Shown: positions 23,229 through 58,000 of the stretch, in pieces
Numbering within the stretch: the stretch's first letter is position 1
Layout: the number at the start of each line of letters is the position of its first letter
Source: Diplonema papillatum
Lineage: Eukaryota; Euglenozoa; Diplonemea; Diplonemida; Diplonemidae
Length of the DNA stretch: 64,000 nucleotides
Direction: 5' to 3'
NCBI GenBank assembly: GCA_030068145.1
Contig: JAPJBO010000040.1
Coordinates: 186,001 to 250,000, forward strand
The notes under the pieces: generated by a model
The model's database searches: none
The model's input: only the letters and a program-made list of their open reading frames with translations
Told to the model about the DNA's origin: nothing
Translations under genes and position numbers: made by a program

Positions 23229-23488
23229 TCGCACCAGGTGGCTCATGTACTCAAAATACCTCAACGCCTAACAAAAAATTGACGTGGGCGGCTTTAGATT
23301 TACATCTGAATGACACCTCAATCCAAAAGAGTTGTCGACAACTAACAAGTAAAATACTCCAGCAAAACTACGCACTTCTTTCACGCTTGCTTTATTGGGA
23401 ATTGGGAATACTCGAGGAGGCCGCGTACCAGGCTGCGAATTCTCATACCAAATAACCCCAGGTGTTGGGTGTTGGGGACGGTCGCAAG

Positions 23489-29844: not shown

Positions 29845-32800
29845 GGCACGGAACGATGCGATCGAACAGGCGTTCGGCGTCGCAATGGACGGCTACGGCA
29901 AGTTGCGTGGCTGGATGCTGGATGTGCGGGCGACCATGCCAGGGTCGCACTGCGCTCTTCTTCGCAAGTGCGAAGAGGTGTACCACACCGAGGTGGTAGG
30001 CGTCGACCAGCCACCGGACGAAGCAGGGGAGCTGATTGCCACCCTCGTCGCCTTCGAGCCGAGCCTTTTCGCGGCTGCACAACACGTGGGAGGCCTCACC
30101 AAAAGATTGTGTGTCCAGGACGGGAAAGGTTCTTTTAACAGAACCCCCTTGCCTACTACTGGTGCCCAAGTAAGATTTCAGATGAAGCGATGGCTTTGCC
30201 CACCAAATATTTGACAGCCTGAGCCGTCCGCGCGAGGACGAAGTTCGCTCGAGGCGGACCGGGCTGAGCTGCGGAACGAGGTGCGGGGGTGCAGGGCGGC
30301 GGCGGAGAGGCTCGCCGGGGAGCGCGAAGCCGTCGCCCTGCGGGCGGCCGCGGGCCGCGAGCGGAGCCTCGCCCGCAACCTATCCGAGCTCAACTACGGA
30401 CACATGCCGATAGATAACCTAACTGCGTAACTCTCTTGAGCACGCTGTGCTGTTCGTACTGTGTTAGTAGAGTATATGTGTGTATGACACAGGCATACAC
30501 ACATATACTCAACTAACGTTCTCGCTAAGCCGTGCCCAAAACAGGACCTTCGCCCCACGGGCAAAGAAAGGTTCTTTTAACCTAAGATTTTCCCCCCTCG
30601 CCAGATGAAGCGATGGCTGTGCCCACCAAAGATTTGAAGCACCTGCTGGGCAGCCTGAGCCGTCCGCGCGAGGACGACCAGGATGAAGTCGCGAAGAAGG
30701 TGCTGCTGCTGCTGCAGGTGAAGGACAGCGAGATCCGTTCGCTCGAGGCGGACCGGGCCGAGCTGCGGAACGAGGTGCGGGAGTGCAGGGCGGCGGCGGA
30801 GAGGCTCGCCGGGGAGCGGGACGGCATCGCGGGCAAGCTCAAGAAGCTGGCCGGGGCGCACGGCGGCGTCGACCGGCTCCGCGCGGAGCTGCGGCTGGCG
30901 GACGCCGAACGGGGGGAAGTCGTCCGCGAGAAGCAGATCGCGCTCGACGAGCTCCAACGCGCGTCGGCGCGGGCCGAGAAGCTGGAGGCCGCGCTGCAGG
31001 AGCAGACCGTCCGGTCCGACGCCCTCGAGCGCGAAGCCGTCGCCCTGCGGGCGGCCGCGGGCCACGAGCGGAGCCTCGCCCGCAACCTGTCCGAGCAGCT
31101 CGCCCTCCAGCGTGAAGAAGCCGGCGACGCGGGCGCCGCCCTCGCCACCTGGCGGCAATCCGCCGCCGCCGCCACCGACACCCTCGAGAAGCAGGCCGAA
31201 ACCTTGCGAAAAGAGCTCGAATCCGAGCGCCACGCCCGGAAAGCCGACCGGGAACAGGCCGCCGCACTCTCCCGCGGGTGCGACGACGCAGGGGCGCGGG
31301 CGGAGCGGGCCGAGGCGGCGGCGGCGGAGCTCGAAAAGACGGTGTCGTTCCTGAAGGAGGCGCGGCGGCAGCTGGAAGGCGACTTCGCGGACGTCGAAAT
31401 CGAGCGGGAAAAAGCGGTCGAGAAGCTCGCCTCCGAGCAGCTCCGCACGCGCGAGTGCGAGAAGCGGGCGCGGGACGCCGCGGCCGAGGCGGACGCAGCA
31501 CGACGCGGGATGGAGGAGGCCGCCGCCGCCCGCGACGAAAAGGCGCGGGAGGTCGAACGGGTCAAGGGCAGGCATGAGGCGCTTCGCCGGGAGGCGGCCG
31601 CGGAACGATCGCGGGTCGACAACTTCGAAATGGTCGTCGTGCACTTGAAGGGCGAGCTCGAAGCTTCGAACACGGCGCGAAGCGACCTCGAACAAACCCT
31701 CGCGGACGAGCGCGCGAAGGCAGGGGGAACCCAGCGGGAAATCGCCGTTTTGCGAGAGGACCTGGAAGCCCGGCAGGCCGCGCTGGCGCTGCTGGAACTC
31801 GAACAGGCGGACCTCGTCTCCGCCGCCGCCGCCGCGCGTGCCGCTGAGGAGGCTGTGGAGACGCAAGCCCGGGAGTTGGCCCTCCGCGTCGAACTCCTCC
31901 AGTCCGAGCTCACGCTGCGCGAAGACGCGCTGGACGACGTCCAGGCGAAAACCGACGAGCGGATATCCGACCTCGCTGGGCAGCTCTGCGAGGCTGAAAA
32001 CCTCCTCGCCGACGCCGAAAAAACCGTCGAAGACGCGCGGGGCCAGCGGGCAACGCTCGAAGCGGACCTTTCGAGCACCCGCGCCGCGCTGAAGCTGTCG
32101 GAAGCCGAGGCCAGCCGGCGAGCGTCTGACGCGGCAGTCGCGCAGGCGGAGCTGGAGGCCGTGCGGGAGTCGCAGGTGCGGTGCAAGAAGGCGCTTCGCC
32201 GCGCGAAGGGCGAGCGGGAGGCCGCGTTCGAGCAGCTGGCCGCGGTGCGGGCCGAGTTCGACGACGTGTCGTCACGGTCGGTCCGCGACCAGCACGGGGG
32301 GCAGCAGGTCATCTCGTCGCTCGCCGCCGCGCAGAAGGACCTCAAGGAGCAGCTCCTCGCCTCCAAGCAGGAGGCCGAAGATCTCCGGTCGGAAGTCGAC
32401 CGGCTCGAGGATGCCATCGCCGCGCGCCAGCGCGACGCTCGGACAGCCGAAGCGAAAGCCGACGAAGCTGCCTCGGGTAAGTCCTTCCTCCTTCCGTCCC
32501 CTTACATCTTCTTCAAAGAGGTTTTGATGAGAGTTGGTATCAAAACATGCATGAGAAGCATTCGATCCGGTTGATCCAACGATGCTCTGTTTGAAATACT
32601 GGTGCAGGGACTACTTATGATTTACAGGAAGTAAAGTCTGAGAGAATCAGAGCCCAATAATGGAAACCAATAATTGATGAACCGGGAAACGCCTACGACG
32701 TCTCGTACTAGTATTCCTATACTCCACTTTCGGAGTGGTGATAAAACGGAAGGAATTCGTGTCACGAGAGAAGTGACCGAGGTACGGGGAGCGGGAGGCC

Positions 32801-35600: not shown

Positions 35601-37508
35601 TGAACATGCTTCTTGGCTGTGCCCAGAGGGTGGCATCATCGTTACCCGCGAATACCGAGGTCGCACTGTTGAGAATGTGACACGGCAATCCGTCATGTTC
35701 CAAAGATGTCAGTCTGGGCAATGAGCGAACCAACACCAACTGAAGATCATGTTTTCGTCCTCAGCTGCTTTCGGAAGCACCAGTACCACCAGTACCACGT
35801 TGGCGCGCTTCGTTTGCTTCGGCGGAGGCGCTGCTGTCCCCGTTACAGTTTTCATGTACGTGCTTCACATGGAGATCCTCAACTCACGACATACCGGGTG
35901 AAAAGGAAGGACCCTGTGTGGATGCGTCAACGCAAAAGTCTTTGAGAACGAAAGGGCGAAGACATATTTTTGGTGATACTCTCAATAGTCTTTTTTTCCG
36001 AGCTCCGTAGATGGGGAACGAGCCCCTTCTTTAGGCTGTCTCTCCCTCTTCGTGTGGTTCGGCTTTCTTCCTTCTCGGCTTAAAAAACGTAGATCGAGCG
36101 AAAAGTCGCGCCTTTTTTTTCTGGCCCCCGCGTACTCGCACATAAGTTAGAACTTAGACAGTACTTACCTCTGATCCGTTGGTTGGTGTTTTCCATCCTT
36201 CTTTTAGCGCGAGTGTCGGCGTGGGTGGATTGAAGGTGCGGTGAGTAGTGCTCTCGGCTCCTGATTTCTTCTGGGCCTTCTTGCACGTTGTGCCTGCAAT
36301 GAAGTTTCGAACAAGAGAAACCAACTGGTTGAATAAACCACAGCATTTCGCTTCATCACAGCGGTGGCGAGTGGAATGTGGCTTCTGCCCAGTGCCCTGA
36401 ATGGCAACACTGAGAGATCAGGTTGTTGGCAGAAGCTTCATCTGGAGCAGGTCGTTTTCTTTTAGCCACCCGCAATCAGTGTTAGGAAACTGAACCGCTC
36501 GAATAGGACTCGCTGTTCATGATCAATTGCCACCTGAAACCGAAACCACGTCGTACGCCCGGTGTACGGGTTTCATCTGATCACTTTTTAGCACCAACAA
36601 TCTTGCGGGTTGCTCTACGATGAATTGCATTGACTAAAAAACAGACCGATACGAGCTGCATGGCAACCCCTGCTCAACATGCATGCGCGTGGGGGGCCCA
36701 AGACTAAATTCAAAGCGAATTTCTTCTTGGTGTCGGTCGCAACACTTACAAACATGGCTAGCCGTATTTAAGCATACCTACTACCCACATACCACCCGCC
36801 TCACAGCCTCAATGGTCAACCGGAGACCCTAAAACACCGAACCTCTAAACCACAATAAACGCTAAAAAAGACGTAGGCAGCCCGCATTGATCAGAATTCA
36901 TAACCTGTACATGGATCAGGGTAAAATACCACACAAAACAAAACGAAGCGTCTGTCTTTTTTGACGCACCACTCACACGGCACTGTAGGTAGGGGGTGTG
37001 GAGGAGGCGCGTTGAAAAAGTCTGTCGGGGATGGACCGATAAACGGGACATCGAGTGCGCTCCTTGGGAAACTCCTCGAGAGGTAAGGCCCCGTGGAGGC
37101 TTCGGCGTTGCACGGAGCTAAGTCGGAACCCAAGAGGCAAAACCAGCACCCCACACGCACCTAAGACCGTCAATCCGCAAAAGAAAGAGAGCGAAGTACG
37201 AGAAGGAAGACAGGCGGCACCCACGCCTGCTACTCCTCCTGTCGGCGCCATCACCCCCTCATTCCAACTCGTTGCCATAGCTTTACCTTGCTGAGACACA
37301 CCTCCTCCATCTGGCCTTATCCGTCAGTAAAAGAGTGAACTACTACCGAGTTGTACGTACAGTAGTGAGCAGAAAACCGAGCGAGTGGAGAAAGAACGGA
37401 GTTAGCACAAACTACCCTTCGGCCGACGGAGACCATTCCTCCTGGTTGCCCACAACCAGAACTAATTGCAACGAGTCGATCCCCGGCCGGTCGGAGCGGG
37501 GGCCCGCC
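35601..37508. other. Intergenic repeats upstream of gene D
   Basis: 36455-36560 matches 10060-10150 (GGAAACTGAACCGC...GATCA...TTGCCACCTGAAACC). 36725-36885 is a RepD-family copy with GTGTCGGTCGCAACACTTAC. A minus-strand frame at 37299-36973 (108 codons, one hydrophobic stretch GLTVLGACGVLVLPLGF) could be a small gene but has no other support. Confidence 0.45.
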
Positions 37509-40500
37509 ATGGATGTGCTCGCGCGGCTGGGGGAGAGCGCCTGGGGCCGGCTGTTGAAGAAGCAGCGGCTCCGGAAGAGGAGGCTCGAGAAGAAGGCCGA
37601 CGACCCGCGTCGGCAGCGCGCGAAGGACGCCGCGAAGAGCACGTCGGTGGTCGCCCTCGCGCGGCAGTGCGACGAGGTGGGAGGCACGAGGCTCGCACTG
37701 GTCTGTCCACAGTGCAAGGTGCCCGCGCACGACCTGTACGTCGACTCGAACAGAGAGTTCGAGTTCCACGTCTTCAACTGCAGGCTGAGCCACGGCGCCA
37801 ATCCGTTGCTCCCGATCGTATCGCTGACCCCGCAACCTCCCGTGAAGCCGAAGGCCGAGGCCAGGCGGCAAGTATGGGACTCGTCGACTGTTAAAGAGCC
37901 GGCGACCAGCGTTCCGCCGGGGAACCCGCGGCACGCCTCCCCTGGCATCGCGCCGAAGCCGCCGCCGCCGCCGCCGCCGCACGGCGCGCGGCCGTGGCCG
38001 CCGCCGCGGGACTGGTCGACGAGCACGTCGTTCCCGCCGCTCGATCGGCAGCCGACGCCGGCGCTCAACGCCGGGGACCCGCGGGCCCACTGGCACGAGA
38101 GGGTCAACGTGTTAGCTCTCGGCAACCTGCGCGCCGTGAAGCAAGCAGGCGATCCAGCCGCCGCGGCGAAGCTGCGTGCTCTGCTCAAAGCGGCGTCCCG
38201 CCGAGACCGCGTGTTTGACCTGTCGTCTGTTACCCTCGGAGTCTCCGACCTGCCCATCGTCGCGCCGTTGCTCTTCTCCGCCAACCAGGCGTCCCTCGTC
38301 GAACTCGGGCCCGTCGAAGCCGACGCACGCGCCCTCGTCGGGCGGCTGCTGGTGGAGTCGGTCTCGAAGCTCGACACCGTCCTCCGCGTCTCGCACCCGG
38401 CGGGCACGCTGCCCCCCGAGTCGGAAGCAGCACTGGACCGGGCCGTCGACCGGTCGGCGCGGAACATGGTCGATCGGGAAGCGTTCGCGAAGCTGGCGTC
38501 TTTGCAAGTTGAGTACGAGGCTTGGATGTCCGAACGGACGACGGACCTCCGAAACTCGATCGCCGGCGAGACCGGCGACAGGGCGCGTCTCGTGGACGAC
38601 GAGAAAGAGGAGAGGCACAAGCTGTTGGTCCGGAAACGGCGGGCGTGGCTCGCCGCGAAAAGGTGTGTGCTTTCAATCTTCGGACGGAATGGCCATCGTT
38701 GGCGGACTAAAAAGAGCGCGCCGCTCTGCAGTTCTGTCTGCGTATTTAGAACCTTCTTGCGTCCACTCTTCCCGCGGGTTCTGAGCACCCGTTCTTTGTC
38801 CCTTTTTCTTCCACCGTTTCTGCGCGACGGGAGGTCACCTGCCAACACAAAACCGTCCTCCCCCGAGAAGAGACACGCTGTGGGTTCGTCGAGCATAGCA
38901 GATAGACAGCGACAAAATCTTTGTTTGCTCTAAAGAAGTACCACCTCTCGCACCAGTCCCGCCTCCTTTGATTCGCCCGCCGAGCTTCTGCACAAAACCG
39001 ATGTTCACTGCCGTTGGTCTCTTTGACGATCCCGAATCTTCGCTGAACGACCGCCTTTCTACAATCGAAGAGGCCCTCGGAGAACTCCTCCACTGTGTAC
39101 CCGCGAAGGACGAGGCTTTCACGACGAGGACTTTGCTCGTTCGAAACAAGAAGTCGGCTCTGAAATCCGAAACACTCGATTCTCCCCGTGGCAGCGACGC
39201 GGTACGGGCCCCAGGAAGCCCGTTGTCTTTGTCCTTTTCTCAAAGCAACCGTTTTTGCAGCTCCTTGCAAGTCATACTTAAGTCTACCCGGCCTCGCCAC
39301 AGAGCCAACCCACGATGACGTTTAGGCCCCTCGGAGTGCGTGAACCACCAATGAAACCCCGCGATCACATCAGCTGCCAACGCTCGCCGTGCTGTTAGGA
39401 TCTCCACGTAGAAGAGGTGCAGCGTCTCCAGCAGACGAAGTAGCTTCTCCCGCTCCCTGGCCATCGGTGCAACAATCATCTTTGACTGGGCCGCGGCTCG
39501 CTCCGCGCCCACGACGTAACGACTTACGCCCGCCGTAGTAGTACAGGACAGTAGTGGGGCGACCGGATACCCCCGGAGAGATGGTCCCTGCACTCTAACT
39601 CGTCTCTCTCTCTCTCTCTTCCTGGGGGGCGGGGGCTACTACGCACAATCGCAAGCATGGTAGCCAACTCTGCTGCGCGGCCGTCGGTGTACTTCGCGCG
39701 TGTCTGTTTCGAGACCCCCTCCCAATCGCAACTCTAAACCAGTCCCGACGTGGCTGGCCATTACTAATAATGAACGCGTGCCAAAGAAACAGCCCACACT
39801 CAAAATAGCCCTTACTTGCTCGAAGAACCCCCATTAACAAGGTCACCCGCATACCACGATACCACGATACCACGATAGGCGCTAGTAGCACCACAGGATG
39901 CTAGTACATGAGATACTCATCCCGAGCATCTCCCGCTGCATGGCATCTAAAATGCCGGAATTTCAAAACGAACTTGAACTCCAAAAAACAGGTCCGAAAT
40001 CGCGCGTCTGGAAAGCGAAACGGCGCGCAAGGGCGTCGACGAGTTGCTGGCCAGCGAGCACGCGTGGCGAAGGTGCACGAAGGCGGTGGAGATCGGGGAC
40101 CTGCTGTGGTGCGTCGTGCTTGAAACCGACGACTGGCGCCGGGTCGCGGAGAGGGAGCACACAACCGCCCGGCAGACGCTGAAGGCGGCGGAGGAGCAGC
40201 ACCGCGCGAGCGCCTGCATCCGCGCCGCCGCGCGCCTGGCGAAGGAGCAGAGCGAGAAGGACCTGCTGGGCGACGTCGAAGAGGAGGACCGGTGCTTGGT
40301 CGCCCAGGTCTTCGAAGCCGCCTGCGTGCAGCTTGCGTCCCTGTTCCGGGAGAACGAGGCGCGCATCCGCTTCGCGGAAACCCAGCAGCACGTGCTCGCC
40401 GAGTTCTGCGAGCTGTGCGACGGCCGGTTCAAGATCATCGAAGCCGACGAGATTGAGTCCTGGCAGTTCATCCAGCAGCGGATCAAACTCTTCGCCCACT

Positions 40501-43500
40501 CGAAGCGCCAGGAGCAGCACCGCGCCCGCCAGGCGGTCCAAGACTCCGAGACTCGAACCCGCGCTTGGTTCGCCTCCGGGATGGAGCAGCTACTGCGGCT
40601 CGTCAAGCGCCACCTCGACCTCACTGTCGCCCACGAAAAAGTGCAAGCCAGCCTCGCTGCCAACCGCAGCAACCGCCGGTCTTTAATGCTCGAGGCGCCC
40701 AACCTGCGGGTCGACCCGTGTGTCTCGTTCAACACGAAGCCGGCGACGTACTTCGTGCACTCCAACTGCGAGCCGGAGGACCCGATCCTCATAAACCCGA
40801 GGACCACCGTCACCATAGAGCTCGCCCCGGACTGGCCGAAGAGGCACGCGCGCGCGGTGCGGGCGTGCGAAGACAACGGGAAGGCGGCGATCGAGTCGGC
40901 TGCCGCCGCGGAGGACGCCCAGGCGACGGCAGAGGCTGCAGTGGCCGCGTTCTACGACGCGATGCTTGCGCTCGGCGACGAGGTGGCGGTTGAAGGCGGC
41001 GGCGGCGGCGGCGGCGCGACCGACGAATACCTCGACCCCGAAGAGGCCGACGAGGAATTGACCCCCACCCGCGGGAAGAAGCGAAACCCGAAGCGCGCCG
41101 TGCACGTGCTGCAGGCCGCCGTCAAGCTCGGCTCCGCCGGGCCACCGGCCGGGGGTGGCGAGCAGAAGAGTGAAGAAGCGCTAGCCGAGGCGAAGGTCGC
41201 CCGGGAGCGCGAGTACCAGGCGCAGCTCGAAGCGTCGAGGCTCGTCGCGCGGCTAAAAACCCGCATCGCCCGCGGCTCGGTCGCCGTGTCCGTCGTCCCG
41301 CACCCGGACCATTCGTACGCGCAGACCTCCCTCCTCTCCTGCAAGCACCCCCTCGAGCTCGCCCACGCCGCGCGCTCGCCGACCCCCCGCTCCCCCTCCC
41401 TAGGCGTCCCCGCCGAACCTCCGGAAGGACAACTAGCGGTGTCGTCTGCCGGCAAGCCGGCGGAGGACACTTTCCCGCGGCCGGAGGGCAACCCGGTGCG
41501 CGTTTCGTTCGCCGGCGTGATGGCGGCGGGGCCCGCTGGATTGGACGTGAGCGCGGCCGCCGACCACGTGTTCACGCGGGAGCAGACACCCAGAGAGGAC
41601 GATCCCGACCCAAGCCGCGAAGGGCCGCCCAGTGCGGTGGAGTACGTGACGGCCGACACCATCACAGCCACGCTGCGGAGCATAACCTACCACGCCCGTG
41701 CTCAAGCAGTTGAAACGCCGGTCGTGCTTGACATCACCGTGGATGTGGCCCTCGAGTTCGACATCCCTTCGGACACCGCCGGCGAGGCACCCGAAGCGAC
41801 CGACCGACAGTGGATCGCCGCCGAAAAATCAGTCCCGTTCAACGCCGTGCTCTCCCGCCCGTTCCTGACCTACGACAAGCTCGACCTCCCGGACATCGAC
41901 TGGCTCGAAGGCAACCGGAGCGACGACGTTCCCCTGCTGCAAGACGCGCTCGTTGTGTCGGACCCGCCGACGGTGACGAAGAAGGAGAGCGACACGCATT
42001 TCTCGGTCATGGCCGGAGGCCGCCAGGGTGGCGGGCTCTCGCTGACCAACTTCCACGGGTCGGAGCTCACGGTCGAGTTTGTGTCCGGGCGGACGCCGGA
42101 TGACCTCGTCTGCTTCAAGTGCAGCGCGAGGTGTTCGCTGAATTCGGCGGGGTCCATCTGTTTCAGGGACCCCAGTGCGCAGTCCGACTCGAAGGACGCG
42201 GGCGCCGCCGCGGTTCGAGAGGAGGCAGCGCTGACGGAAGTGGGCCGCGTGGTGAAGGGAAGGCTCGCGCCGTGCGGCGAAGCGTCGGCGGCAGGAGCCG
42301 GCAGCGGGCTCGTGGTCATCGAGTTTGCGTGCGAGCAGAACGCGGCGCTGCTGGTAGCGGACAACGTCAGGCACTTCCTCCGGCAGCTCCGCTTCCACAA
42401 CACTTCGGTCGCGCCGGTCGAGGGAACCCGCGTCATTCGGGTCTCGCTTGTCGACGCAAACCGATACCGCAGCCAGGTGTTCACGCGGGTCGTCGTCACT
42501 GGGCAAGACAACCCAACCGAGATGACGATCCCGCGGCTCAAAATCCAGATGCGGCACTCGGCGACGCCGGCGCCGCTGCGGCAGTACCTCACGGCGCCCG
42601 TCATCCCCGTCGCGGACGGGGCCACCGTGAAGGACGTCGACACCGACCGGTTCATCGGCGGGTCTCTCCGGGTCCTGCTCGCGCAGGCGCAGGGCAAGGA
42701 GGGCATCTTCCTCTGCGTCGACCCGACCATGCTTGCCACCGTGTACAACAACTGCTCTGGGCAGATTGCCGAGCATCGGCAGTCGAGGAGCTCGAGGGGG
42801 TTCGAGTCGGAGGTCTCGAACGTAGGCGACGGATGCGAGAGTGCGGATGCGTCGGTGCAAACGCCGGCCAGGAAGGCATCCGGCGCCGGGGCCCACGGGA
42901 TCGTGATCGGCGCGGATCGGCGCGTAGAGTTCGAGGGGTTGCTGGTAGGGGAGGTGGCGGCCGGCGCGGTGGTGGCCGACCCGTCGCAGCTGCCGCACGC
43001 GGAGGCCTGCGCCGAGATCGTCGTCACCTTCGCCGAGTCGGGCGAGATGAGTATCGCCGCGTGCCAAGCGCTCCTCCGCTGCGTGGCCTTCACATCCGGA
43101 CAGCACAAGCTGGGCGTCCGGTCCGTGGAGTTCACCCTCACCATCGGCCCTACAGTACCGGACACGCTAGAAGGCGAAAGCGTTCCGATGCCCGTGTTCG
43201 ACGAAACCGAAGCCAGCGTGCTGCACGAGGTGGTGACGATACGGGTTCCCCCGCATTTGCTGACGGTTCCGGAAAAATACGCTGAAATCGAGTATCGCGA
43301 GCGCAGCGGGCCCCAGCGGGTCGCCCCGTTCGACCTCGGACAGGACAAGCTGTCGTTCGTCGACTCGTACAGCGGAGGATACGCCGTCGTCGAAATTTTG
43401 GAGGGCAACAACGACGAAGACTCGCTCGCCCTCCGCGAGGACGAGACCATCAAGCTTGCCCCGCACGCCAGCAAGCCGAAGGCGCACCCGCGCAGCTTCC

Positions 43501-45517
43501 TGCCGAAGGGCTCGAAACAGCCGGTGTCCCCGCACGAAGGCAAGCCGCTCTCCGCGCCCACGTTCGCAGATGCGGAGCCGGCGGTGGATGGCGCGGCGCC
43601 GACGACGCCGGGCGATCCGAAGTCGCCGGCCTTTGGGTTCCGGTTCTCGGAGCTGAAGGACAAGATGCGGGACCACGCCCGGGAGGAGGCAATCGGGCGG
43701 AAAAACCGGCGCGAGTCGCTCTTCGACGCGGCTCAGACCGAGATCAAGGGCCTCGTCCGCGACCTCGAGAAGCTGCGCGCCGGCGCCGAGACGGGCGCCG
43801 ACATCCTCGTCGCCGACAAGTGCATCGGAACGTACCGGCGGGACGGCAACGGGAAGCTGCTCGTGGCCTTCCACGGAGACGCGAAGGACCCGGTCTCCCG
43901 GAAGCACGTGCTCGCTATCCTGCGCAACCTGACGTACAACAACACGTCGTCGGACCCGCAGGTGCTCAAAAAGGTGCTCCGGGTGACCCTCTGCGACCAG
44001 CCGCCTTCGTTCTGTCAGTGCGTGGTCGAGCTGAGCATTCAGTCGGTATGGGTCGCCCGCTCCTTTTTTTTTGCGACAACCAATTTCTGCATCTTGGAGG
44101 CAGTATTTGTTACAGCTAATAGGATCGTTGACAGCGGTCAAATCAGAACACATGTAGGATACTCGCACAAACAATGCATTGTAAACACGAAGGAGAACGC
44201 TGGCAGCGTGTTTGGGTGAAGATTTCGCCGAACAACCAAATTCACTCACTAACAGGCTCATCTTTCCCCGGCACGTACAAACGGACTGCCCTTCAATGTC
44301 TTGTGCAGGCTGGCGGCCAGGCAGTAATAAATGGCCGCACAAGCGAGTCCATTCCCCACACGGCTCGCCGTGAGTATTTTAGCCACCACACTCAGCTCCA
44401 AAAAACACCCCAGGTTGACGACGTCACCGAAGTGTCGCTCACCAACTCGAAGGTGAAGTACGTCCCGGCGGGGCATCGTCCGCACGATTTACCGTTCGTG
44501 CTCGTGCCTTGGGGCACGGGCCGATTCTTGGACGCAGACACCGAGGTGTTCAACGGCGGGTGGATCTCGCTGCAGCCCACGCCGACGGGCATGAAAGGCG
44601 ACGTGCTCGGATTCCTCACGCCCGCCCAGCAGCGGGAGATGAAGGAGCGGACTCGTGAGAAAAAGGGAGACCGCTTGCCCGAGTCATATGCGGCCCTGCC
44701 GTTCACCATCGACGCCGGCGACGACGGCAAGCTCACCGTGTGGAACGACGAACTCGACGCTTCGCTCGGCGAACAGCAGTTCGGGCACTTTCAGTATTCG
44801 CACGAAAGATCCGCGATGAAAATCACCGCTTTGAAGGCAAAAGAGGGCGTGCCCACAGTGTCCATCGACTTGTTCAGCTACGCCCTGAACTGCATCACGT
44901 TCACCAACCAGCAAGACGCGCGAAAATCCGGAATGCGGACGTATTTGATAAAGGTCACCGACGGCGACAACCCGCAGGAGGGCAGGGCGAAACTCTTCAT
45001 CGAGTATCAATCCCCGCACTGCTACTTCCTCCCGTGGGCCTTCACCGCGGAAACGGTTCGGAAGGGAGACGCGCCCGTTGCTTTCAATGACGGGAAGGCG
45101 AAGATCACGCTGCTGATGCCCGGCGGAAAGGATGACAAGTCCTTGACGTCTGGCACCTTCTGCGTTTCCTTCGAGCCTGATGGGAACGGGCAAGGTGAAG
45201 GGGATGGCTGTGAACAGCAGGTAGACAGCGCACCAGCCGGCGAGATCGTGTTGCCATCGGGGTATTCTGTGAAGGACCAGTCTCTGTACCAAGGCACCGT
45301 CTTCCTAGCGAAGGTCGCTGTTGCGACCCCAGCTAACTTGAGCTACGAGTTTACCTGGGCTTCCAAAATGACCACGAAGCTGCTCCAGCAGTTCCTCCGG
45401 GGCCTGACGTACGTGCCGGCTCGCCCGGTGCCAGTCGCAGTCACAACGACGATCACCCACGGCAATGCTCCCCACACGCAGGCTACCTCCTGCGTTTCGT
45501 ATGTGAAGCTGCAGTGA
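37509..45517 (+). CDS. Gene D: about 2,103-aa protein with cadherin-like beta repeats (37509-38662, 39992-44045, 44414-45517)
   Basis: Three exons join in phase (AG|G = Arg, TCG|GTT). Exon 1 from the good-context ATG 37509 encodes a basic helix, a CPQC...C cluster, a polyproline tract and an LRR-like stretch (RVFDLSSVTLGVSDLP). Exon 2 begins with helices to about residue 850. Then come repeats with the signature L-R-x-(L/I)-x-(F/Y)-x-N-T-S...R-V-x-V: LRSITYHARAQAVETP, LRQLRFHNTSVAPVEGTRVI, LLRCVAFTSGQHKLGVRSVE, LRNLTYNNTSSDPQVLKKVL, LNCITFTNQQDARKSGMRTY and FLRGLTYVPARPVPV. This is the pattern of cadherin-like/CSPG-type beta-sandwich repeats, often with ADGATVKDVDTDRFIGGSL-type Asp motifs. 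No signal peptide or TM helix is evident, so it looks intracellular, which is unusual for such repeats. A further in-phase exon start near 38985 was considered but does not rejoin exon 2. Confidence 0.75.
44075..44300 (+). repeat. RepB element in gene D intron 2
   Basis: Nearly the whole 368-bp intron is repeat: TTGGAGGCAGTATTTGTTAC, TGTAAACACGAAGGAGAACG, CTGGCAGCGTGTTTGGG, and a degraded hairpin ending CCCCGGCACGTACAAAC. Its best relative is 58140-58265. The intron ends with CTCCAAAAAACACCCCAG. Confidence 0.6.
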
Positions 45518-46097: not shown

Positions 46098-49000
46098 ATG
46101 GGCAAAAAGGGCGGTCTGATCCTCGAAGGGACGAAGCCGCAGCGCATATTGTATGTCTTTATTCGGTTCTTTTTTGTTCTTCCAAAATTTATCTAGCTGT
46201 TCTGAAGACAGCATTTCCGGGATCCGCGCGCGCACGTGAAAGCTCAAATAAATCCTGTGGCTTAGACGGTTGCAGGGCCTCATCCCTGAGACCCTGGACG
46301 CGTGAAGGGCAGACCGTACTGCCTGAAGTACGTGCGCTCGGCTATAGCCGGCGCGGGGCGAGACTGGAGGCAGCTGTTAAAGTTCGGGAAACAGTAAAGT
46401 TCGGGCGACGGGCGAAGCTATGTTCTGGTAAAGTAAAGTTCGGGCGAAGAAAAGTTCGGGTGCAGCTGAGTTCGGGCGAAGCAAAGTTCGGGCGAAGCAA
46501 CGCTCGGGCGATGCTAAGTTCTGGCGAAGCTAAGTTCTGGTGAACCAAAGTTCGGGCGAAACAATTCTAGTTCTGGTAGCAAGTTTGTACGAGTGCCTGT
46601 TTTATGGCGGGGTGTGCGAGCGCGGAGCAGACATGCGTCGACGGCTCGCTGTTCGAGCTCGACAACTGGCGGTGCGTGTGCCCGCCTCCGGCCGTCGGCA
46701 CCGGGATGAAGGTGTGCCGAATCTACCGGGCCTACCGGCCTGAAGGCCGACGCCAGCTCACTCTGCCACCTCTATGCATTTTGGCAGGGGAAAAAAAAGC
46801 TAGCTCCTCACTATTATCTGGTCCAAAAACAATACACTTTCATAATTGTTGCAAGAAAAGTGGGGTTGGCTCGAATAGAGGCTATTCACATTGCATGTTC
46901 ATAGGACCTCCAGTCTCGAAAAATGTAAGAAATTTCCACGAGCATCACCTTCCTGTTTCTTTTCTAAGTTTTGGCAGCCGCTGCGTAACAAGTGCTCGCT
47001 TGCCTTCATGGCACTTGCACTTTACAGGACCCCATGCTTAACACATTCTGACGTGGAGAACTTCAGATTTACGAACCTCTGCACCACTTGGGTGTCCCTA
47101 AAACGCTCCGGAAATCCAGAATATCTGGTCGGATGCTCGTTTAGGTTGTAATAATGGCTGCAGAATGCGAAAACAAGGCGAAATCACCAAGACAATTCCT
47201 TAACCCCTTACGGACGGGAGACATATATATATATATATATATGAGACGATGCCAAAACCCCCCCCCCCCCCCTTTGCACTAATAAAATATTTTTTGACGT
47301 CACTCCATACTGGCCCCGAACCCCCATCTGTGTGGCCCAAAACGGGTCCCAAACGGTTTTTGACGGGCTGAGTCGAGGTAAAGGGGTCTCTGAAGGCCCA
47401 CGAATGGGCCCAGGTGGGCCCAGGTGGGCCCCGGAGCGGGCTCTCAGTGCGAGGGGGTGTGCCGTAACAAACTGCCACTGGGCGAGTCAGATACTGACTG
47501 CTCAAGGTGTTCAGACGACATTGGCTCAAGTGCTTCCAGTGATGAACAGGAGACCGTGGCCGAGAAGATGCAGAAAAAGAGGACAAAGAAGAAAGAGATG
47601 TTTGCCAAGATGGCAGACCAGGAAATAAAAAACAGGGCCCGGGGAAAACATCCACCCAAGGAGAAGCCATCAGCAAAAGCCCAGGCCAAACCGCGTCCAA
47701 AGACATCCAAGTCCAGTGAACGGAGTTCAGATGCAGCCCCTCCAAGCAAGCGTCAGAAAAAGTGAAGTCGCCATCTCCACCTCTTGGTTCTTTTGCATTT
47801 TTCCACCTTATATTCTGCGTTTTCCTGGTAAGCACTGTGTTCTCAAAAGCGGGTGAAGCCGGATTCTAGGCAGGGCGCACTTGCACACCGCACATTCTAA
47901 GCGTGTGCCTGCCCACTGCTGGCGCTGCGCACATGGGGCTAACTGTGACCCCCGAGAGCATTCTTCGGCTTCAAGAGGACCCGCTGGTGGCTATCTACGG
48001 CGGAACACAGCCGATCTTGTCGTTTTGAAGTCTGGGTTTCCCGCTGGAGGCCAGAAAGTGTTTGACTAGCTTGAGTAGTGGCGAGGCCCGAAAATGACCC
48101 CATTTTGGGGACTCTCCCCCTCGCGCTCCAGGGGCCTACCTGGGCCTACCTGGGCCCACCTGGGCCTATTCGTGGGCCTTCAGAGACCCCTTTACCTCGA
48201 CTCAGCCCGCCAAAAACCGTTTGGGAACCGTTTTGGGCCACACAGGTGGGGGTTCGGGGCCAGTATGGGGTGACATCAAAAAAAGTTTTATTAGTGCAAA
48301 GGGGGGGGGGGGGGGTTTTGGCATCGTACCATATATATGTTGAAAAATCAAAAAAAGTTGCGGAGATCATCTCAACTATGAAGACACAACGAAAGTAATC
48401 CATACTTACTTCTTTGGAAAGATATGTCACAAATCTTTCAAAATCACCCTTCATCGGACAAAACTGCTGCCCAAGCTGCCAAGCAGATGCCACTGCAAAA
48501 CTTGGGGCCTGGCCAGAAATGGGTGTTTTTCGAGTTCTTGCCTGTGCTCACTACAGAACCCAAGCTCTGGCACGTGCCAGGGGCCCAAGCCACACCCAGC
48601 CAGTGCATATCCAACTAAAGTGGTCGGTGTTTGCTTCTTTGGAAAGATACGTCACAGATCTTTCAAATGCGCCCTTCATCTGACAAAACTATTGCCCGTG
48701 TGACGAACAGATGCCACCGCGAAACCCGGGACCCAGCCAGCATGGGACAGTAGCAAAAGACGGGGTGAGTGCTCGAAGGCGGACTCGGAAAAACGGGCGT
48801 GTGAAGAGATGATCATTTGATTTGGTGCAGCGACGAGGAGAAAGGGTCTCTGATTCCACTACTTCTTTGCAACGTTGCTGATTCTGTGGCCAGCCGACAG
48901 TGTAAGATCCTTGAAGTGCCGGCCGTTGGGGTCCTTCAAACGGTCAACGGTGCCTTGCATGGTTGGGTCATCGAAGAGATGTTGCGCCATGGTGTGGTAC

Positions 49001-52000
49001 CTTCCGAAACCCTCCACAGGGCAAAGAGGGACATCGCACTGCTTGCATTTGTAAAGAGCACCTTTGCGCTGCACGTGGCATATGCACTGTCGCTGCTGAT
49101 CCAGCTTGACGAGGTTGTGAAATAGCCCGTTCAACTTGTGCTTAACGCCGTGCTTTTGCTTTTCTGTCTTGCGAGCAAATTGGGGCGAAGGTGAGGGTGG
49201 CGGCATCGTTTTGTTGGAAGGGGTTCCGTCTCTGTAGAGCACCCTGTTGGGCAGTCCTTTTCGGCGGAAAGGAGCTCCATCGCCAGCTTGCGCTTGAAAT
49301 CGGGAAGTGAAGGTGTTCTTCCTTTCTTGTCAGTCCTAAGCATTTTCCACACGATGTAGGCATTCACAGTGGAGACCTCGACTAAGTAGAAAAAAGTTTG
49401 AGGTACCAACGCCGGCCCTTCATGAGTCGCCCGCAACTCGCCATGAGCTGATCGCCCATGTCGACGCCGCCCATGTGCGTGTTGTACGAGCTGACGATAT
49501 CCGGCTTCTCCACCTTGCGTGTCTTCTCATTGGAGATTTTGCTCCACTGTGGTAGTGATTTCCCCAACAGGAAGCGTGGACAGCATTTTCTTTATTTTTG
49601 GACAACAATTCTAGGTGTTGTTCGGATATATTTTGCTGGGTTTTCCGACCAGGTGTCTCCTGTGACCGTGTGTCTCCTGTGTCACTCTGCATGTGTACGC
49701 GTTCAATTCTGAGGTGCGCATTTGGAAGATCGGCCGCGAAAATCATTAAAATCCCGGATTCTCAAGCGAACTATAACTCTAAACTGCACCCCTTGGCCCC
49801 CATTCTCTCCATGAAGAACGGACGAAGGAAGGAGGAAGTGGAACCATACCGTATGGTTTCAAACCACGGAGTCCTGGACTCCTTTCCCACACTTTTTCTG
49901 CGAAGCAGACGCACAAAGGGACGGTGCCACGGCATGATTCGGCAGCCGCTGCTAAACGAACACAGTGCATGCTAATCCATGTGGTTCATGTACTTAAAAG
50001 AACTCAATGTTAAACGAACATCGACGTGGGCGGCATAGAGAAAGAAGAACTACTCTACGGCACCAGAAAGTCCAAAAAACCATGGTAAAGAAAGTAGAAG
50101 GAGAAAAAAGAAGTTGTCGACAACGAAAGAAAGAAAAGAACAGAAAATAAGACTCTGCATTCCGCGAAGAAGACTTGATGCTAGCATCAAACACATGAGA
50201 GGCAAGTAGCGCCTGAACACGAAACTAAGATTTTCCCCCCAACGGAGTATGCCGGCCTTCTGAAGGCACAGGTCTTACTCTGCTCTCCAATGGAGAAGAC
50301 ATCAGTTCCCCGGAAACAAGGGAATACCCAACCACCTACGAAGATAGGAAAACCCTGGCCGACTGCAGTAAAGCAGCACCGGCAGGAGAACGGCCCAATA
50401 AACAGCATCGAACTGACAAACACCCCACCTCCGAATTCCCAAAACAAGGCGAGATTTGGAAAGGACCGCGTTGTCTACGCGGGAAAAGGTGAGTTGCCAG
50501 TTATTCTCTTCCCTCCTTCATTTCCCAACAAAGAACAGTCTTCCGGGTGGCGAAACGGAAAACAAAGCACTCAGCTGCCTTCCCCCGTCCCGCCTACCGG
50601 ATGCAAAATGTGACGTCCCAGCTTCTCTGCAGCACAGGGACTGATAGCCGGAAGCAAAGCCCCGCATCCCTTTGTTGGCCGCGGCCGGTACCACTACAGC
50701 ACTTTCGAGCGCCATAAGGTACCGGCCCCGATGCAAAGTAAAAGTTTTATTTACCCCCGCCCTGCAACCCCGCGTCAGAGAGGAAGGCTGTCTACCTTCC
50801 TGCGCCCCATTTCTTCCCCAGCTTAGAACAACCCATGAGCGAGCCCCAAGCCAACTCCCCGTCAGTGGCTCTTGTCGGGGCAGCCATTCACAACTGACAG
50901 GAAGAAGACGACGGGCGAACTCTAGTGTGTCTTTTCCAAGCAAAAACACCCCAAATAAAAAGGGTACAGAAAAGCACAGGTGCCATCCACACCAGTGCAG
51001 AAAACCCAGGGAAACCAGAACCCCGGGCAACGACGGAGACCCGAACCGATACCGACCACTTGGATGTTGTAACCACACGATGGCCCCTTGCCGTGTGGCC
51101 CTAAAAAAACGCCGCAGGACCGCTTTTGGACCTGTCAGCCCGACACGTTGATAGACCCAAAATAAAAAATCCCACCCTCGTCTCTAAATCGTCATTGAAA
51201 GTGCCTAGGAAGCACAACCATTCGAGGCGGAGTGCTGCGTCGTCTGCCACCACCGAGTCCGAAAACATGAAAGTTGACTACTTTGATGATGAACTCGAAG
51301 GTACAGACACTAAGGTAGTCGTCGGATATCCGATTCGGACAGATGACGAATGCCTTATTTTCCGACAGCGCCACTCCCAGGAAGGACCTGAACTTGTTGG
51401 TCGTTTCCCAGCGACACGGAGAGAGGGAAAGGAAGAGAAACGCTGCGACAAAGGTCATCCCAGACCCCAAGCAGCCCCAAAAACAGAGAAATCCTGCGAG
51501 AAAGGTCTTTCCAGACCCCAAGCAGCCCCAGAACAGAGGAACCGTGGAACTACTCAACGCCCGGTTCACAATGATCGACCAAAGGAGCGCGAACAAAAGA
51601 GGCCACAAAAAGAAAAACCCAGAGCACAAACACGTAAACGCCGCCAAGAAAAATCGGAAGAACGACCACGTGACTCTGAGGCAAAAAAACAAAACCAAAA
51701 AAACAAGAAAAGAGCAAAAACACGCGCCAACAGAAAAGAACGGCGAAAACAAAAAACAAAACGGCCCAAATCTGACACTCGATTCCTCGCCGCTTTTGTC
51801 CACACCCGCCGCCACCCTGACGACGGCGACGACGATCACGGAAGTCGAAGAAGAAGCGCGATCGAAAACTTCTGGAAGCGATACGGCACGAAGGTGTCAA
51901 ATGGACGGAACAAGTGCGGGACCGACCGAAGCGACGTCGCCGACAGCACGACCGGAGTGATCTACGTGCTTCTGAACGAAGGGGGCACCGTCCTCTACGT

Positions 52001-55000
52001 GGGTCAGACGTCGAAGACGGCCGAGATGCGAAACAGCAAGCACTGGGAAAATCGGAACTCCAAGGGCAACCGTGTGTCGCAACAATTGCGAAAGCGAGGC
52101 CGAAAGCTCTACGCGTGTCCGATACAGAATGTTCCGGAACGGCTGTACGTACAGCCCGCTGACTTCGCGCGCGTTGCTCTCCCTATCGAAGATTTCTGGA
52201 TCAAGTGGCTAAACCCGCCCTTGAACATGACGAATCGGCGCCACGGAGAGAGGGTCAACCGCAAGGCTGCAAAGAAGAAGAAGAGGCAACGTCCACCGCA
52301 ACGCCTCCGCAAACGACGCACCGACGGCAACGTCTGGCACCGCATGGTAAACGGTGAACTCCACATTGACACCTCCCCGGGCTTCTGTTCTGGGTTGAGG
52401 AAACAATTGGACCACCTGCTGACACTCCCACAGGACCGGTTGGGAACATACGACATGGCAACATGGCACCCCAATCGTGCCCTACGCCTCCGCACGTGGC
52501 TGAGAACCTTCGTTCGAGGAAAGGACGTAACGGAAAAAGTACGTACCCTCGAGCGGCTCCTCAGTACGCGCATTCGCAACAGAACCGAGAAGCCGGCAGC
52601 CCCCCCACGACGATATTTTAAGCTGACACACCATCACCCGGCACAAGACCGAACAGCAATAGCCGGCGTCTTGTCACGCGCACGGGTTCGCGAAACATGC
52701 CCCAACCCGGCCGTCCTCAAAAACCTCATGGTGAGCAACCGACTGAAGCCACCTCTGGTAACCCTCGTCAGCAACGTCACCGAAGTAAGTTACGAAGCGA
52801 ACCAACCGACTAGCTCAAGCTCGGTTTGTCCATGCATGCAGCATCTAACACCACACCGCGCGGACCTTGGTGGACACGCTTTAGGACTTGCAACGGACCT
52901 GAAGACCGACGAAGCCCTCCTTTCGCTCTTTCGGAAAGGACGCAAGTACCGAGTCGCGAGTAGCCCGATGACGATGTACGACTCGATAAGGCACGACGTC
53001 GAGGAATTCGTGAACTCGAACTTCCCGAAATCGAGCGAGGAGGAGAAGACCAGATTCACAACGACTCTGGTCGAAGAGTTCGACGCCGTCCTTGGAACGC
53101 TCAACGCACACACCGACGAACCTCAACTCCGAGACGCCATACGAACCCTGAAAAAGCTCCAGGAGCACCTCGTATTTCTCCCTGTTGATAAGACGTCCCA
53201 TGACTTTGGGTTTATCTGCAAGGAAAAGTACAAGGAACTTTTACGGAGCGAGTTACAAGAGAGCTCAACGTACCAGGAAGTTGGCGAGTCGATTGAAGAC
53301 GTGCTCAAACGACACCATGACTTCAACAAGTCACATCAATTCACACACACCAACATCCTACCGTACCTTTACGGCATCCCGAAACTCCATAAACCCGAGC
53401 CACGGATGCGGTACATTGCCGGCGTGTCGGAGAAAGGGAACATTGAGAAGAAAAACGAACAGAAGGACCGAGACGAAAAAGGCCGCGACAAGAAACGAGT
53501 GAAGACACGTGCATCAACTACCCCTGCCCACCAAGAAGCCTCCGGTTTGCTGAAGCTGGTTCTAGCCACGCTCCGAAGCAAGGACGAAGCGACGTTTTCG
53601 CAAACGGGGATACGTCGTTTCTTCGTCGTCGAGTCGGTCGATGACGTAGCAGTGCACGTAAAGACGAACTACGCACGACTTCGCAAAAAGACGCCACGAA
53701 CTTTCGATTTCAAAGAAATGTACACAAAGATTCCGCAGAATCAGATCGTTGACTATGTCATGTCTGCAGTTGCGGAGGCTTTCGAGTACATGACGTCCGA
53801 AAAAGGAGCGAACGTGGAAGCCCAACGAGCCAAGCACCGTTTCGAGTTTGGGAAACCAGACGAATCGAACACAACCTCCTACAGTGTCGCAGAGATTCGG
53901 GAACTGGTCGAATTCATTGTCGGTAACACCTTCGTCACGAACGGCGGAAAGTGCTACCAGCAGGTCACAGGAATCCCCATGGGCGGCAATGCAAGCCCGG
54001 ACCTCGCCAACCTATACTGCTACTGGTGCGAAAAGCAGTACATCGACGGCCTGGTCGCAAACGGATTGCAAGAAGAAGCCAGGAATCACGCCGACAGCGT
54101 CAGATTCATTGATGACTTCTTGACCTGGGGCGTTCGACCACCGCCGGAATCTGTCTACGGCATGGAGTACGGAGAAACATCGAAAGGTGTCGACGACGTA
54201 GTCTTTTTGGGGATGCGGATCCGGATGGAGAGGGATACCAAAACGGACTTCATTCGGATGTCCGTCCTGGACAAGGGTGAGGAATTCCCCTGGTATCCGA
54301 TCAAGTACACGCACGTCGAATCAACGGTACCACGGAACACCGGAACCTCGATCTTCAAAGGCGCTCTGATTCGAGCAGCGCGCATATGTAACAATATGCC
54401 AGATCTGAAAGTCGAGATCATGAAGGTCCACTACCGACTCCGCAACCGTGGATTCTCTGGACGGGAACTCCGACACACGTTCGACGCGTTCGTTGCGCAA
54501 ACGTACGGGAAGTACGAACTGGATGCGCGAGTGCTATCACGGTTCTACCACTTCGTCGGAAAGGCCTTTGACGAAGGACGCTCGACCAACGAAGAGAAAC
54601 CGTACATCAGCATCCGTTCACCGCAACCACCCGATGTTTCACCGAGACCTCCACCCGGGAGAACCTCGCCGCAGAAAACGTCGCCACACAAACCCGAACC
54701 CACCAGCACTACGCACCTTGCGACGAAGCCAACAAACCCACCTGGACGCAACGGCATAAGGAACATCCGCAACTCATGTTTCTTTGCCGCCAGCGTTCAG
54801 TTCCTGGCGCGAAGGACCTCCTTCCGACTGCAGCTCGCAGGCCTTTCGCACCCGAACACCAACCAGTTGAAGGTGCAGCAGCTGTTCACGGATTTCGACG
54901 CAGGCCGTGACATCCACGGAACAATGGCCACACTACGAAGCCTTGTCTTCGACACGACGACAGACGACTCCGCGCAGCGGGACGTGCACGAACTGTTGAC

Positions 55001-58000
55001 GTGGATACGCTCTTGCGTAACGGACGACGACGACGACCAAGCGACGGTGACATACTCCCGACTGACAACGTGTACAACATGCGAAGAGTCTTCACGAGCA
55101 CTGCCGGCGTCAGAACCGTTCCTGATGGTTGAACTCAAAAACAGGGAGAAGCCCTACACCGAGTCAGTAGAGGATCTGATAAAGAAAGTGAAAAACAAGA
55201 GAGCAACCAAAGTGGACGACTTCCCCTGTAGCACCTGCAACAAAAGGACCGTTGGACTCACGAAGGAGTATTACACATTTCCAAACCAAATGGATGTAGT
55301 ACTGCAACGAGCACAGCTGTCGAAAAAAACACGCGAAGACATCAAAATACCAGCCCGCACCCCGATCCGACCAACCATTCTGATCGGGGAAGACTCCTAC
55401 ACGGTAAATGGCTTCATCATCCACACCGGAAGAGCGACGGCGGGTCATTACTATACCGTGCTAAAGGAAAATGACGAATGGGTGTGCTTCGACGACCAGC
55501 AGGTATTCGTACTCTCATGGGAGGAATGTGCCAGAAGATTCACAACGAATGGCTACATCATCTCTCTCGAGAAAGCGTAAACACTTTCACCTGGTGGAAG
55601 TAGTGCCCCGTGGCGGTTGGTTACGAGCCACAACACACTTTGAAAACCCCCTTTTTTTAAAGAAGAACGGACGAAGGAAGGAGGAAGTGGAACCATACCG
55701 TATGGTTTCAAACCACGGAGTCCTGGACTCCTTTCCCACACTTTTTCTGCGAAGCAGACGCACAAAGGGACGGTGCCACGGCATGATTCGGCAGCCGCTG
55801 CTAAACGAACATCGACGTGGGCGGCATAGAGAAAGAAGAACTTCTCTACGGCACCAGAAAGTCCAAAAAACCATGGTAAAGAAAGTAGAAGGAGAAAAAA
55901 GAAGTTGTCGACAACGAAAGAAAGAAAAGAACAGAAAATAAGACTCTGCATTCCGCGAAGAAGACTTGATGCTAGCATCAAACACATGAGAGGCAAGTAG
56001 CGCCTGAACACGAAACTAAGATTTTCCCCCCGTGAATTACTTTTTACCCCCGACACGTACTTTCCACCCCCCGAAAAACGGGGGGTAAAGAGTATAAATC
56101 CGGGGGTATAGAGTATAAATCGGGGGGTATAGAGTATAAATCGGGGGGTATAAATCGATGTCGGGGGGTGGAAATTTTTGTCGGGGGGTGGAAAGTACTT
56201 TTCGGGGGGTGGAAAGTACTTTCGGTGGAAAGTACTTTTCGGGGGGTGGAAAGTCTTTTCGGGGGTGGAAATTTTGGTCGGGGGGTGGAAAGTACTTTTC
56301 GGGGGGTGGAAAGTACTTTCGGGGGGTGGAAAGTACTTTCGGGGGTGGAAAGTACTTTTCGGGATTTTCGGGCAAACCCGAATCGCAAACCCGCATACCC
56401 GTTCCCGCAAACCCGCATACCCGAACCTGCAAACCCGCAAACCCAAACCCGCATACCCAAACCCGCATACCCGCGTACCCAAACCCGCATACCCGCATAC
56501 CCGAACCCGCATACCCGTTCCCGCAAACCCGAAATCGCAAACCCCGCATACCCGCAAACCCGCAAGCCCGCAGACCTGCAGATTGTGGCTGGAACTGTTT
56601 TTGCAAATACACACAGCAAATCAAAGAAAGGGGGGAAAGGTGGAAAATGCAGATCAAACGGGAGTAAAACGTGTACACGCTTATCCGACTCTTGACTTAC
56701 TATGCCGTGTTCTGAAAGCTGTCGAGGGGCCCCTCCATAGGTTCTCGCATGATTCGTTCGCCTTTGTAACACTATCCGTTTGTAGTACGCTTCGCAATTG
56801 TGTTCTTGCACTCTAGCCGAATGGCGGGTGGCGGATTTCCGCGCTCGGGCGCAAGACACAATTATGCTGCTTTTGCAGTGCAAGCCGAACCCGGTTCGCG
56901 ACTTCGGTTGCGGTAAAGTGTTACAAAGTCTTCGGCTTTCAGATCCGGATACGCGTATGCAACAGATAGTTAGAGGTCACTTGAAGGATACCCGTGTGCA
57001 GCGTTCGAAAGAGTTTGCGTATCTGGTCGGGGGGTGGAAAGTAGTTTCGAGGGGTGGAAAGTACTTTTCGGGGGGTGGAAATTTTTTTGTCCGGGGGTGG
57101 AAAGTACTTTTTGGGGGGTGGAAAATTTCCATCGGGGGGTGGAAAGTACTTTTTGGGGGGTGGAAATTTTTTGTCCGGGGGTGGAAAGTGTTTTTCGGGG
57201 GGTGGAAAGTACTTTTCGGGGGGTGGAAATTTTTCGTCGGGGGGTGGAAAGTACTTTTCGGGGTGGAAATTTTTGTCGGGGGGTGGAATGTACTTTTCGG
57301 AAAGTACTTTCGGGGGGTGGAAAGTACGTGTCGGGGGTGTTGAGTACATCACCCCCCCCCCCCCCCCCCCTCCGTGAACTTGGGGGAGTGGGCACTTCGT
57401 CACGTACGTTGCGCAAGACTCGGGTTGGATCCTCTTCGACGATCTACGGGTCAGCCTCGTCGACGACATTCCTTAGGACAATGTTTACCTCGCGGCCTTT
57501 GTCCGGGTCCCCCAGATTGCCCACAGCGTGACTGTCCGTGCGCCGTCACCCTCCATGGTACTTCCTGCTCAAGATCAGCTACGCGGCTCATCTACGCCCC
57601 CAAATTCTGCCGGTGTTGTGGTGAACCGACAGTCGGAAGAATCACCTAACCTGCTCTACCCTTCTGGTAGTCCATTGCCCTGCCCGCCCTTGCCGGACTC
57701 CTTATGCCCGACCCCGCATGGTCAGCTGTTGGAGCAGCAGTGGGCGGGATCCCCTGCGCTGCGGTGTCAACACTGCGCCATCGAGTGTACCAAAGATGGG
57801 CAGAAGTTTCAGGGTTTGAAGGGACTCCGTGCACATGAGAGACGTTGCCGCCTCGCGAGTGAAAGACTCTGAACCGTCGTTTGGGCCTCATCGAATTCCT
57901 GACTGTTGGCTGGTCTATTTTACGCTCTGCACCCGTTCACCCTGACTAACGGGAAACAACTCGAAGTGTTCTATACGGGTGAATGCGCACTATCATGAGA

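Follow-up and report, generated by a model that had tools for sequence, protein, structure and literature searches.

A 64,000-nt stretch of the genome of Diplonema papillatum, a diplonemid and marine unicellular eukaryote (contig JAPJBO010000040.1, positions 186,001 to 250,000; hereafter the window), was found to carry a retroelement in which a deubiquitinase is fused behind the reverse transcriptase (RT). Judged by its domain order, a GIY-YIG endonuclease followed by a CxC motif and then the RT, the element is a permuted Penelope-like element (PLE), and its single open reading frame (ORF) ends in a complete ubiquitin-specific protease (USP). Our preferred reading, held with moderate confidence, is that this USP most likely shields the element protein from ubiquitin-dependent removal. 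The kin of the window element, itself probably an autonomous retroelement, seem to have acquired deubiquitinases repeatedly, with the shared activity under selection.

The plus-strand frame was uninterrupted in the raw DNA from 51126 to 55580 over 1484 codons, with the first ATG at 51267. An earlier reading made from the letters alone (the sequence-only reading) had placed three enzymatic modules in this one frame, with the nuclease N-terminal in the permuted order, and the raw-DNA frame, the Pfam matches and the motif positions bore this out. The GIY-YIG domain scored above the Pfam cut-off (PF01541, E=1.3e-5) and includes GVIY at residue 277, YVGQT at 291, R302 and E355, which we take to be its catalytic residues. 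Most relatives with a record long enough had a CxC motif ahead of the RT; Craig et al. in 2021 reportedly described a CxC between nuclease and RT as a hallmark of permuted PLEs. The FIDD-bearing RT was located as anticipated, and when the window protein was aligned with seven relatives the columns of D861, GIPMGGNASP (949) and the IDD of FIDD (994) were invariant or nearly so. Among the Pfam profiles proposed for checking the translation, GIY-YIG and UCH (E=4.7e-16) were matched and RVT_1 was unreported for the window protein. An RT profile gave weak matches in the PDB to retron-type and group II intron RT chains (best E=0.23), and the window RT clustered with GIY-YIG plus RT proteins in the tree described below. 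PLEs with an N-terminal endonuclease are not known to carry a hammerhead ribozyme, and none was recognised here since an Rfam scan of 49000-57600 gave no match up to E=1. Such elements also show an insertion bias for microsatellites; the single window insertion (n=1) adjoins a minisatellite.

The fusion recurred among relatives. Three protein searches, the third of which scored the best 7995 candidates by shared words, yielded 61 relatives (P0002-P0062); UCH domains were tallied over all 61 from precomputed domains, and our own Pfam scan covered 30 of them. UCH stood beside the RT in nine: P0002 (18 cluster members), P0003 (7), P0009 (6), P0015 (17), P0040 (11), P0043 (10), P0010, P0038 and P0060. 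P0041 had a cut UCH piece below the cut-off. RT identity to the window protein was 92% for P0002, 80% for P0003, 60% for P0038, 56% for P0060 (over 224 residues only), 38% for P0040, 35% for P0009 and P0010 and 28% for P0015. A USP behind the RT was therefore present in further D. papillatum families, in P0010 and in four other lineages with RTs 28-60% identical. GIY-YIG, RT and UCH occurred together in one chain in the window protein, P0040, P0043 and P0015, the last with a weak GIY-YIG match (E=0.0039). P0010 comes from EukProt, where 'Rhum' in its record presumably denotes Rhynchopus humris, and its name is that of a Trinity transcript, a hint that an RT-USP frame is transcribed. An RT profile scan of viral contigs gave 17 pattern matches and no relatives, and that of genome contigs gave 13 pattern matches and five relatives (L001-L005). 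ORFs were read for L001-L004, L005 being known from tblastn alone, and only L002 among these four had a USP. L002 is a 3.8-kb contig in a gammaproteobacterial metagenome-assembled genome bin, presumably eukaryotic contamination, and encodes an RT and UCH (E=5.6e-27) in one frame that leaves the contig at its 5' end, so that any endonuclease region would lie beyond it.

That the fusion is an artefact, either a chance read-through into a host gene or a misassembled frame, is scarcely credible. Several D. papillatum gene models (P0004-P0008, P0036 and P0055) do join the element to unrelated sequence, and annotation alone is for that reason untrustworthy, but the window frame is open in raw DNA and fusions of this kind turned up in further families and sources, including the raw DNA of L002 and the transcriptome-derived P0010. 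The sequence-only reading had raised the possibility that this copy alone runs on into a USP; with nine of 61 relatives carrying UCH after the RT, across families and sources, host read-through is excluded and was rejected, together with misassembly, as a general explanation. The joined models contain the element RT and in some cases part of the USP, some bear host names (UNC93-like, STIP1-like, dynein intermediate chain 2), and P0004-P0007 and P0055 break at nearly one position within the USP; a cryptic splice donor at that point may be misleading the gene finder, or may be in use. The Diplonema proteins P0040, P0043 and P0003, which bear the annotation 'ubiquitin carboxyl-terminal hydrolase 16' or '26', are copies of RT-bearing elements, and the window element is also contained, probably by error, in certain other Diplonema gene models. 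P0057 (D. papillatum DIPPA_35338) is identical to the window protein over 782 residues from the first ATG and departs from it at three of its last 16; it may represent either a second, nearly identical copy or this very locus in a different assembly, its contig being listed at 21 kb, shorter than the 64-kb window.

The UCH profile, on which the sequence-only reading had staked the domain, matched strongly (59.6 bits against a cut-off of 23.9), and the Cys, His and Asp boxes and CxxC pairs of a full USP were all found (Cys1218, His1441, Asp1456, CTTC and CSTC). Cys1218 and His1441 were invariant in nine of nine rows of one USP alignment and ten of ten rows of another. The third catalytic site was Asp in eight of ten rows and Asn in P0038 and L002. 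Asp1456 is, we assume, in register with D481 of USP7; its neighbour Asp1457 formed an invariant column in the nine-row alignment, yet is not the catalytic position. Structure prediction of the C-terminal domain, which had been suggested as a check, returned a confident USP fold with structure matches including USP46/USP12 and the SAGA Ubp8 module, a result that concerns a predicted model only, in a family whose folds all resemble each other. From these residues we infer the window USP to be catalytically active. Identity among element USPs drops to about 20% between lineages, and the USP was less conserved than the RT (34% against 60% for the window protein, P0001, and P0038). Such fast divergence might fit an interface adapting to the host.

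Deubiquitinases of other families stood behind the RT in further relatives. An OTU domain followed the RT in P0056 (E=1.8e-6, 28.9 bits against a cut-off of 23.3) and more weakly in P0011 (E=1.5e-3, 19.4 bits, below that cut-off); the two have a common Cys box (GNCFFE) and His box (SEH), and their joint profile matched OTUD5 at 7.9e-5 and viral OTUs weakly. A Josephin domain followed the RT in P0012 (E=1.5e-9, 38.3 bits against a cut-off of 26) and in P0049 (E=1.8e-6 and 28.3 bits as a piece, 24.4 bits for the whole protein against the same cut-off). The tail of P0054 gave Josephin at E=0.035 as a piece and that of P0048 was Josephin-like by eye only and unreported by Pfam; both have apparently lost the catalytic residues, and a change from enzyme to ubiquitin binder is possible. 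A C-terminal zinc finger (C-x2-C...L-x2-H-x3-C) was common to P0040, P0043, P0009, P0011 and P0056, coming after the USP in three of these and after the OTU in two, and was absent from the window element. USP, OTU and Josephin are all papain-like cysteine proteases; their very ancient common descent is not at issue, the exchange at one position of an element is. In two other tails a protease was suspected by eye. The P0042 tail has the H...D...Q...C order of Ulp1 (C48) proteases, an assignment that gained no support from Pfam (no C48 match), from the PDB (no match) or from the model, which had a pLDDT of 36.6. The P0014/P0016 tail has GACGY and SDHFFF boxes and the look of a cysteine protease, and is not claimed as a deubiquitinase since neither Pfam nor the PDB gave a match.

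An RT tree of 44 rows, named PLE reference elements not being among them, was divided by a branch with support of 100/99 into 21 tailed rows and 23 others. The tailed rows comprised ten with a USP, one with a truncated USP, two with OTU, four with Josephin or a Josephin-like tail (two degenerate), two protease-like without a named family, one with the zinc finger only and one Ulp1-like by eye. On the other side were L002 and 22 tailless rows, with 144-165 residues after YxDD in the 19 that were measured; the remaining three (L001, L003 and L004) were classed by length, at 154 to 158 residues. The OTU rows were nested in a clade of USP rows, Josephin lay on two separate branches, and the L002 RT was nested among the tailless elements. 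Forcing L002 together with the 21 tailed rows cost 120.7 log-likelihood units and was rejected, which makes at least two USP acquisitions likely; the printed p of 1e-107 should not be read at face value, and this test was posed once a tree was already in view. Placing all 12 USP rows including L002 in one clade gave a p-AU of 2.5e-7, a test that mixes the main-clade question with the placement of L002. Keeping the 11 USP rows of the main clade as one group, to the exclusion of the OTU rows, cost 7.5 log-likelihood units, and its rejection was only weak (p-AU 0.036). For the main clade, USP acquisition in one step followed by an OTU branch and several separate events are equal alternatives on these trees; USP-only trees, in which host USPs were not among the rows, had poor resolution and long branches, and a 10-row RT tree was mostly unresolved in its branching.

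In the mechanism we propose, the nuclease would nick DNA and the RT would copy the element RNA at the nick, by analogy with other PLEs (excerpts of PMC11167929), and tandem element copies would leave pseudo-long terminal repeats (pseudo-LTRs). The USP would strip ubiquitin from the protein or ribonucleoprotein of the element itself, which would thereby escape dispatch to the proteasome by host quality control or defence before integration, and it may act as well on ubiquitinated proteins at the target site. Ubiquitin removal is the activity common to USP, OTU and Josephin and is therefore the likely reason for retention of the domain, which suggests that it aids the spread of such elements.

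Protection of the element's own protein ranks first among the functions considered, action at the target site second, and polyprotein processing and passenger status low. A possible though distinctly less probable function is that the enzyme works on host targets where the element inserts, such as ubiquitinated histones, PCNA or further repair factors, and so opens chromatin or steers repair towards filling the cut site with the element. Such a role would suit a deubiquitinase tethered to a nuclease and an RT in one chain, the structural neighbours USP46/USP12 and SAGA Ubp8 point the same way as far as folds so alike can, and in five relatives the conserved zinc finger after the deubiquitinase could bind nucleic acid, although the window element has no such finger. 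A similar suggestion was made by Bao et al., who linked OTU and Ulp1 in Ginger transposons to DNA repair (excerpts of PMC2836005).

Processing of the element polyprotein, for example to free the nuclease from the RT as the sequence-only reading had considered, is improbable. Retroelement proteases often do process polyproteins, but USP, OTU and Josephin enzymes cut after the C-terminal Gly-Gly of ubiquitin, no ubiquitin-like domain was seen in the window ORF by eye or with Pfam, and a Leu-Gly-Gly near residue 580 was not conserved in P0008 or P0040 by eye; in the small set of ORFs compared, no Gly-Gly site of ubiquitin type was seen to be conserved, and release of the nuclease by self-proteolysis looks the least likely of the proposed roles. 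We give equally little weight to the view that the C-terminal domains are passenger host sequence acquired by 3' read-through and retained by chance. PLEs are able to transduce host DNA (excerpts of PMC6431247), inactivity is suspected for two of the Josephin-like tails, and in one further tail no protease was recognised; set against this, the catalytic Cys and His are intact in families with RTs only 28-38% identical to that of the window element, the same activity recurs through different enzyme families, and third-position GC is near equal in RT and USP (0.649 and 0.644).

Several observations weigh against protection of the element protein by its deubiquitinase. A two-row Josephin profile matched no Josephin chain in the PDB, the P0013 tail has no recognised protease, and the apparent loss of catalytic residues from the tails of P0054 and P0048 implies that activity is dispensable in some lineages. 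The 22 rows that end soon after the RT indicate that most such elements manage without a deubiquitinase, and the fast divergence of the USP could equally reflect relaxed constraint. Protection of the element protein and an effect on host chromatin would each fit the observations.

Across the relatives, we lean towards a broader reading in which deubiquitination is a recurrent module of permuted PLEs that counters host ubiquitin-dependent control of retroelements. One protist clade would have carried or exchanged at least three families (USP, OTU and Josephin) behind the RT, the enzyme being swapped and the C-terminal zinc finger retained in the USP and OTU branches; a distant second lineage would have gained a USP independently, and some tails would have become non-catalytic, perhaps ubiquitin-binding. 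Ubiquitin- and SUMO-cleaving domains are known from scattered transposons, where a role in transposition has been proposed (excerpts of PMC2836005). The present case offers different deubiquitinase families at one position beside a defined RT within one retroelement lineage; with intact, exchanged and seemingly dead forms of the enzyme supplied by nature, the effect of ubiquitin on a retroelement becomes directly testable.

Features of the window element and the adjoining remnant (window coordinates)
Feature	Position	Strand	Basis or remark
Left direct repeat (pseudo-LTR), 428 nt	49813..50240	+	match to 55662-56031
Leader, left repeat to first ATG	50241..51266	+	position only
Element ORF from first ATG	51267..55580	+	open frame starts 51126; P0057 starts at identical ATG
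GIY-YIG endonuclease, aa 277-364	51954..52217	+	Pfam PF01541 E=1.3e-5
CxC motif (CPC, aa 568-570), upstream of RT	52827..52835	+	motif position
Reverse transcriptase, ~aa 621-1150	52986..54575	+	alignment motif columns
GIPMGGNASP motif of RT	53970-53999	+	motif position
FIDD motif of RT	54105-54116	+	motif position
Proline-rich linker, RT to USP	54576..54734	+	sequence
USP deubiquitinase domain, aa 1204-1484 (Pfam UCH 1210-1478)	54735..55577	+	UCH E=4.7e-16, predicted fold
Catalytic Cys1218 of USP	54777..54779	+	invariant alignment column
Zinc-ribbon pairs CTTC 55071-55082, CSTC 55227-55238	55071..55238	+	motif positions
Catalytic His1441 of USP	55446..55448	+	invariant alignment column
Catalytic Asp1456 of USP	55491..55493	+	Asp/Asn column in 10-row alignment
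Right direct repeat (pseudo-LTR), 370 nt, 3' end of element	55662..56031	+	match to left repeat
Second PLE-USP family, C-terminal remnant, outside element	57384..57869	+	70% identity to P0043

Pseudo-LTRs are direct repeats produced by tandem PLE copies (excerpts of PMC11167929). In the window pair a single substitution and a 58-nt insert, present in the left copy only, are the sole differences, and this near-identity suggests a recent insertion. The insert lies at 49963-50020, the 10-mer TAAACGAACA both precedes it and closes its end, as if it were a short insertion with target duplication, to go by the letters, and part of it is 80% similar to 21880-21929 of the window. The 16-mer CTAAGATTTTCCCCCC forms the terminus of both pseudo-LTRs (50225-50240 and 56016-56031) and occurs again at 30582-30597, where it precedes the start codon of the long ORF 30613-32574 by 16 nt; shuffled sequence gave a mean of 0.01 matches with up to two mismatches allowed. 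It looks like a branch point with a polypyrimidine tract, and perhaps the repeat supplies a spliced-leader acceptor through it.

Just downstream of the element lie two degenerate minisatellite arrays (56080-56366 and 57027-57350) of approximately 20-nt units (GGGGGGTGGAAAGTACTTTTC), with a CCCGCATA/CCCGCAAA array between them, and this region is possibly a preferred insertion site. The remnant beyond them consists of a USP end and the shared terminal zinc finger with one in-frame stop codon, which places two distinct RT-USP families within a 2-kb distance inside the window. Eight further long window ORFs were scanned (40044-44219, 30613-32574, 23462-25252 and 37335-38933 among them), all GC-rich and without a Pfam match at E<=0.01; at 60-70% GC many of these may be open by chance. 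The D. papillatum genome is approximately 52% repeats with many retroelement gene models, and by term counts the words 'Penelope' and 'ubiquitin' are absent from the main text of its paper (PMC10161547).

Already known were PLEs themselves, domains of deubiquitinase type in DNA transposons, and domains resembling Ulp1 in non-LTR elements. No report of a USP, OTU or Josephin in a PLE was found among the open-access matches listed, which do not include Craig et al. 2021, and none appears in the available portions of PMC12910113 and PMC3846280. The peptidase C19 (USP family) that adjoins a Trichomonas transposase is an earlier example of a USP in the protein of a DNA transposon, and Ginger1 resembles the present elements in carrying a C-terminal OTU or Ulp1 behind its mobility enzyme, the two alternating within one group, but is a DNA transposon with a DDE transposase rather than a retroelement (excerpts of PMC2836005). 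The Utopia/NeSL non-LTR retrotransposons likewise join a cysteine protease, of Ulp1 type, to a retroelement ORF, but the protease is N-terminal and these are restriction-like-endonuclease elements of nematodes (excerpts of PMC4640811). Canonical Penelope/Poseidon PLEs share with the window element a GIY-YIG nuclease and telomerase-like RT in one ORF and pseudo-LTRs, and differ in having the nuclease at the C-terminus; a deubiquitinase is unmentioned for them in the available portion of PMC11167929. Cellular USP12, USP46 and USP18 are approximately 20% identical to the window USP, which is instead fused to an RT and a nuclease in a mobile element. There is also a close likeness to the PLEs with an N-terminal endonuclease (Naiad/Chlamys), which, like the window element, have GIY-YIG before the RT in one ORF, pseudo-LTR-like repeats, a CxC motif and no known hammerhead ribozyme, none being found by Rfam here; the window element differs from them in its C-terminal USP after the RT, and its relatives in an OTU or Josephin.

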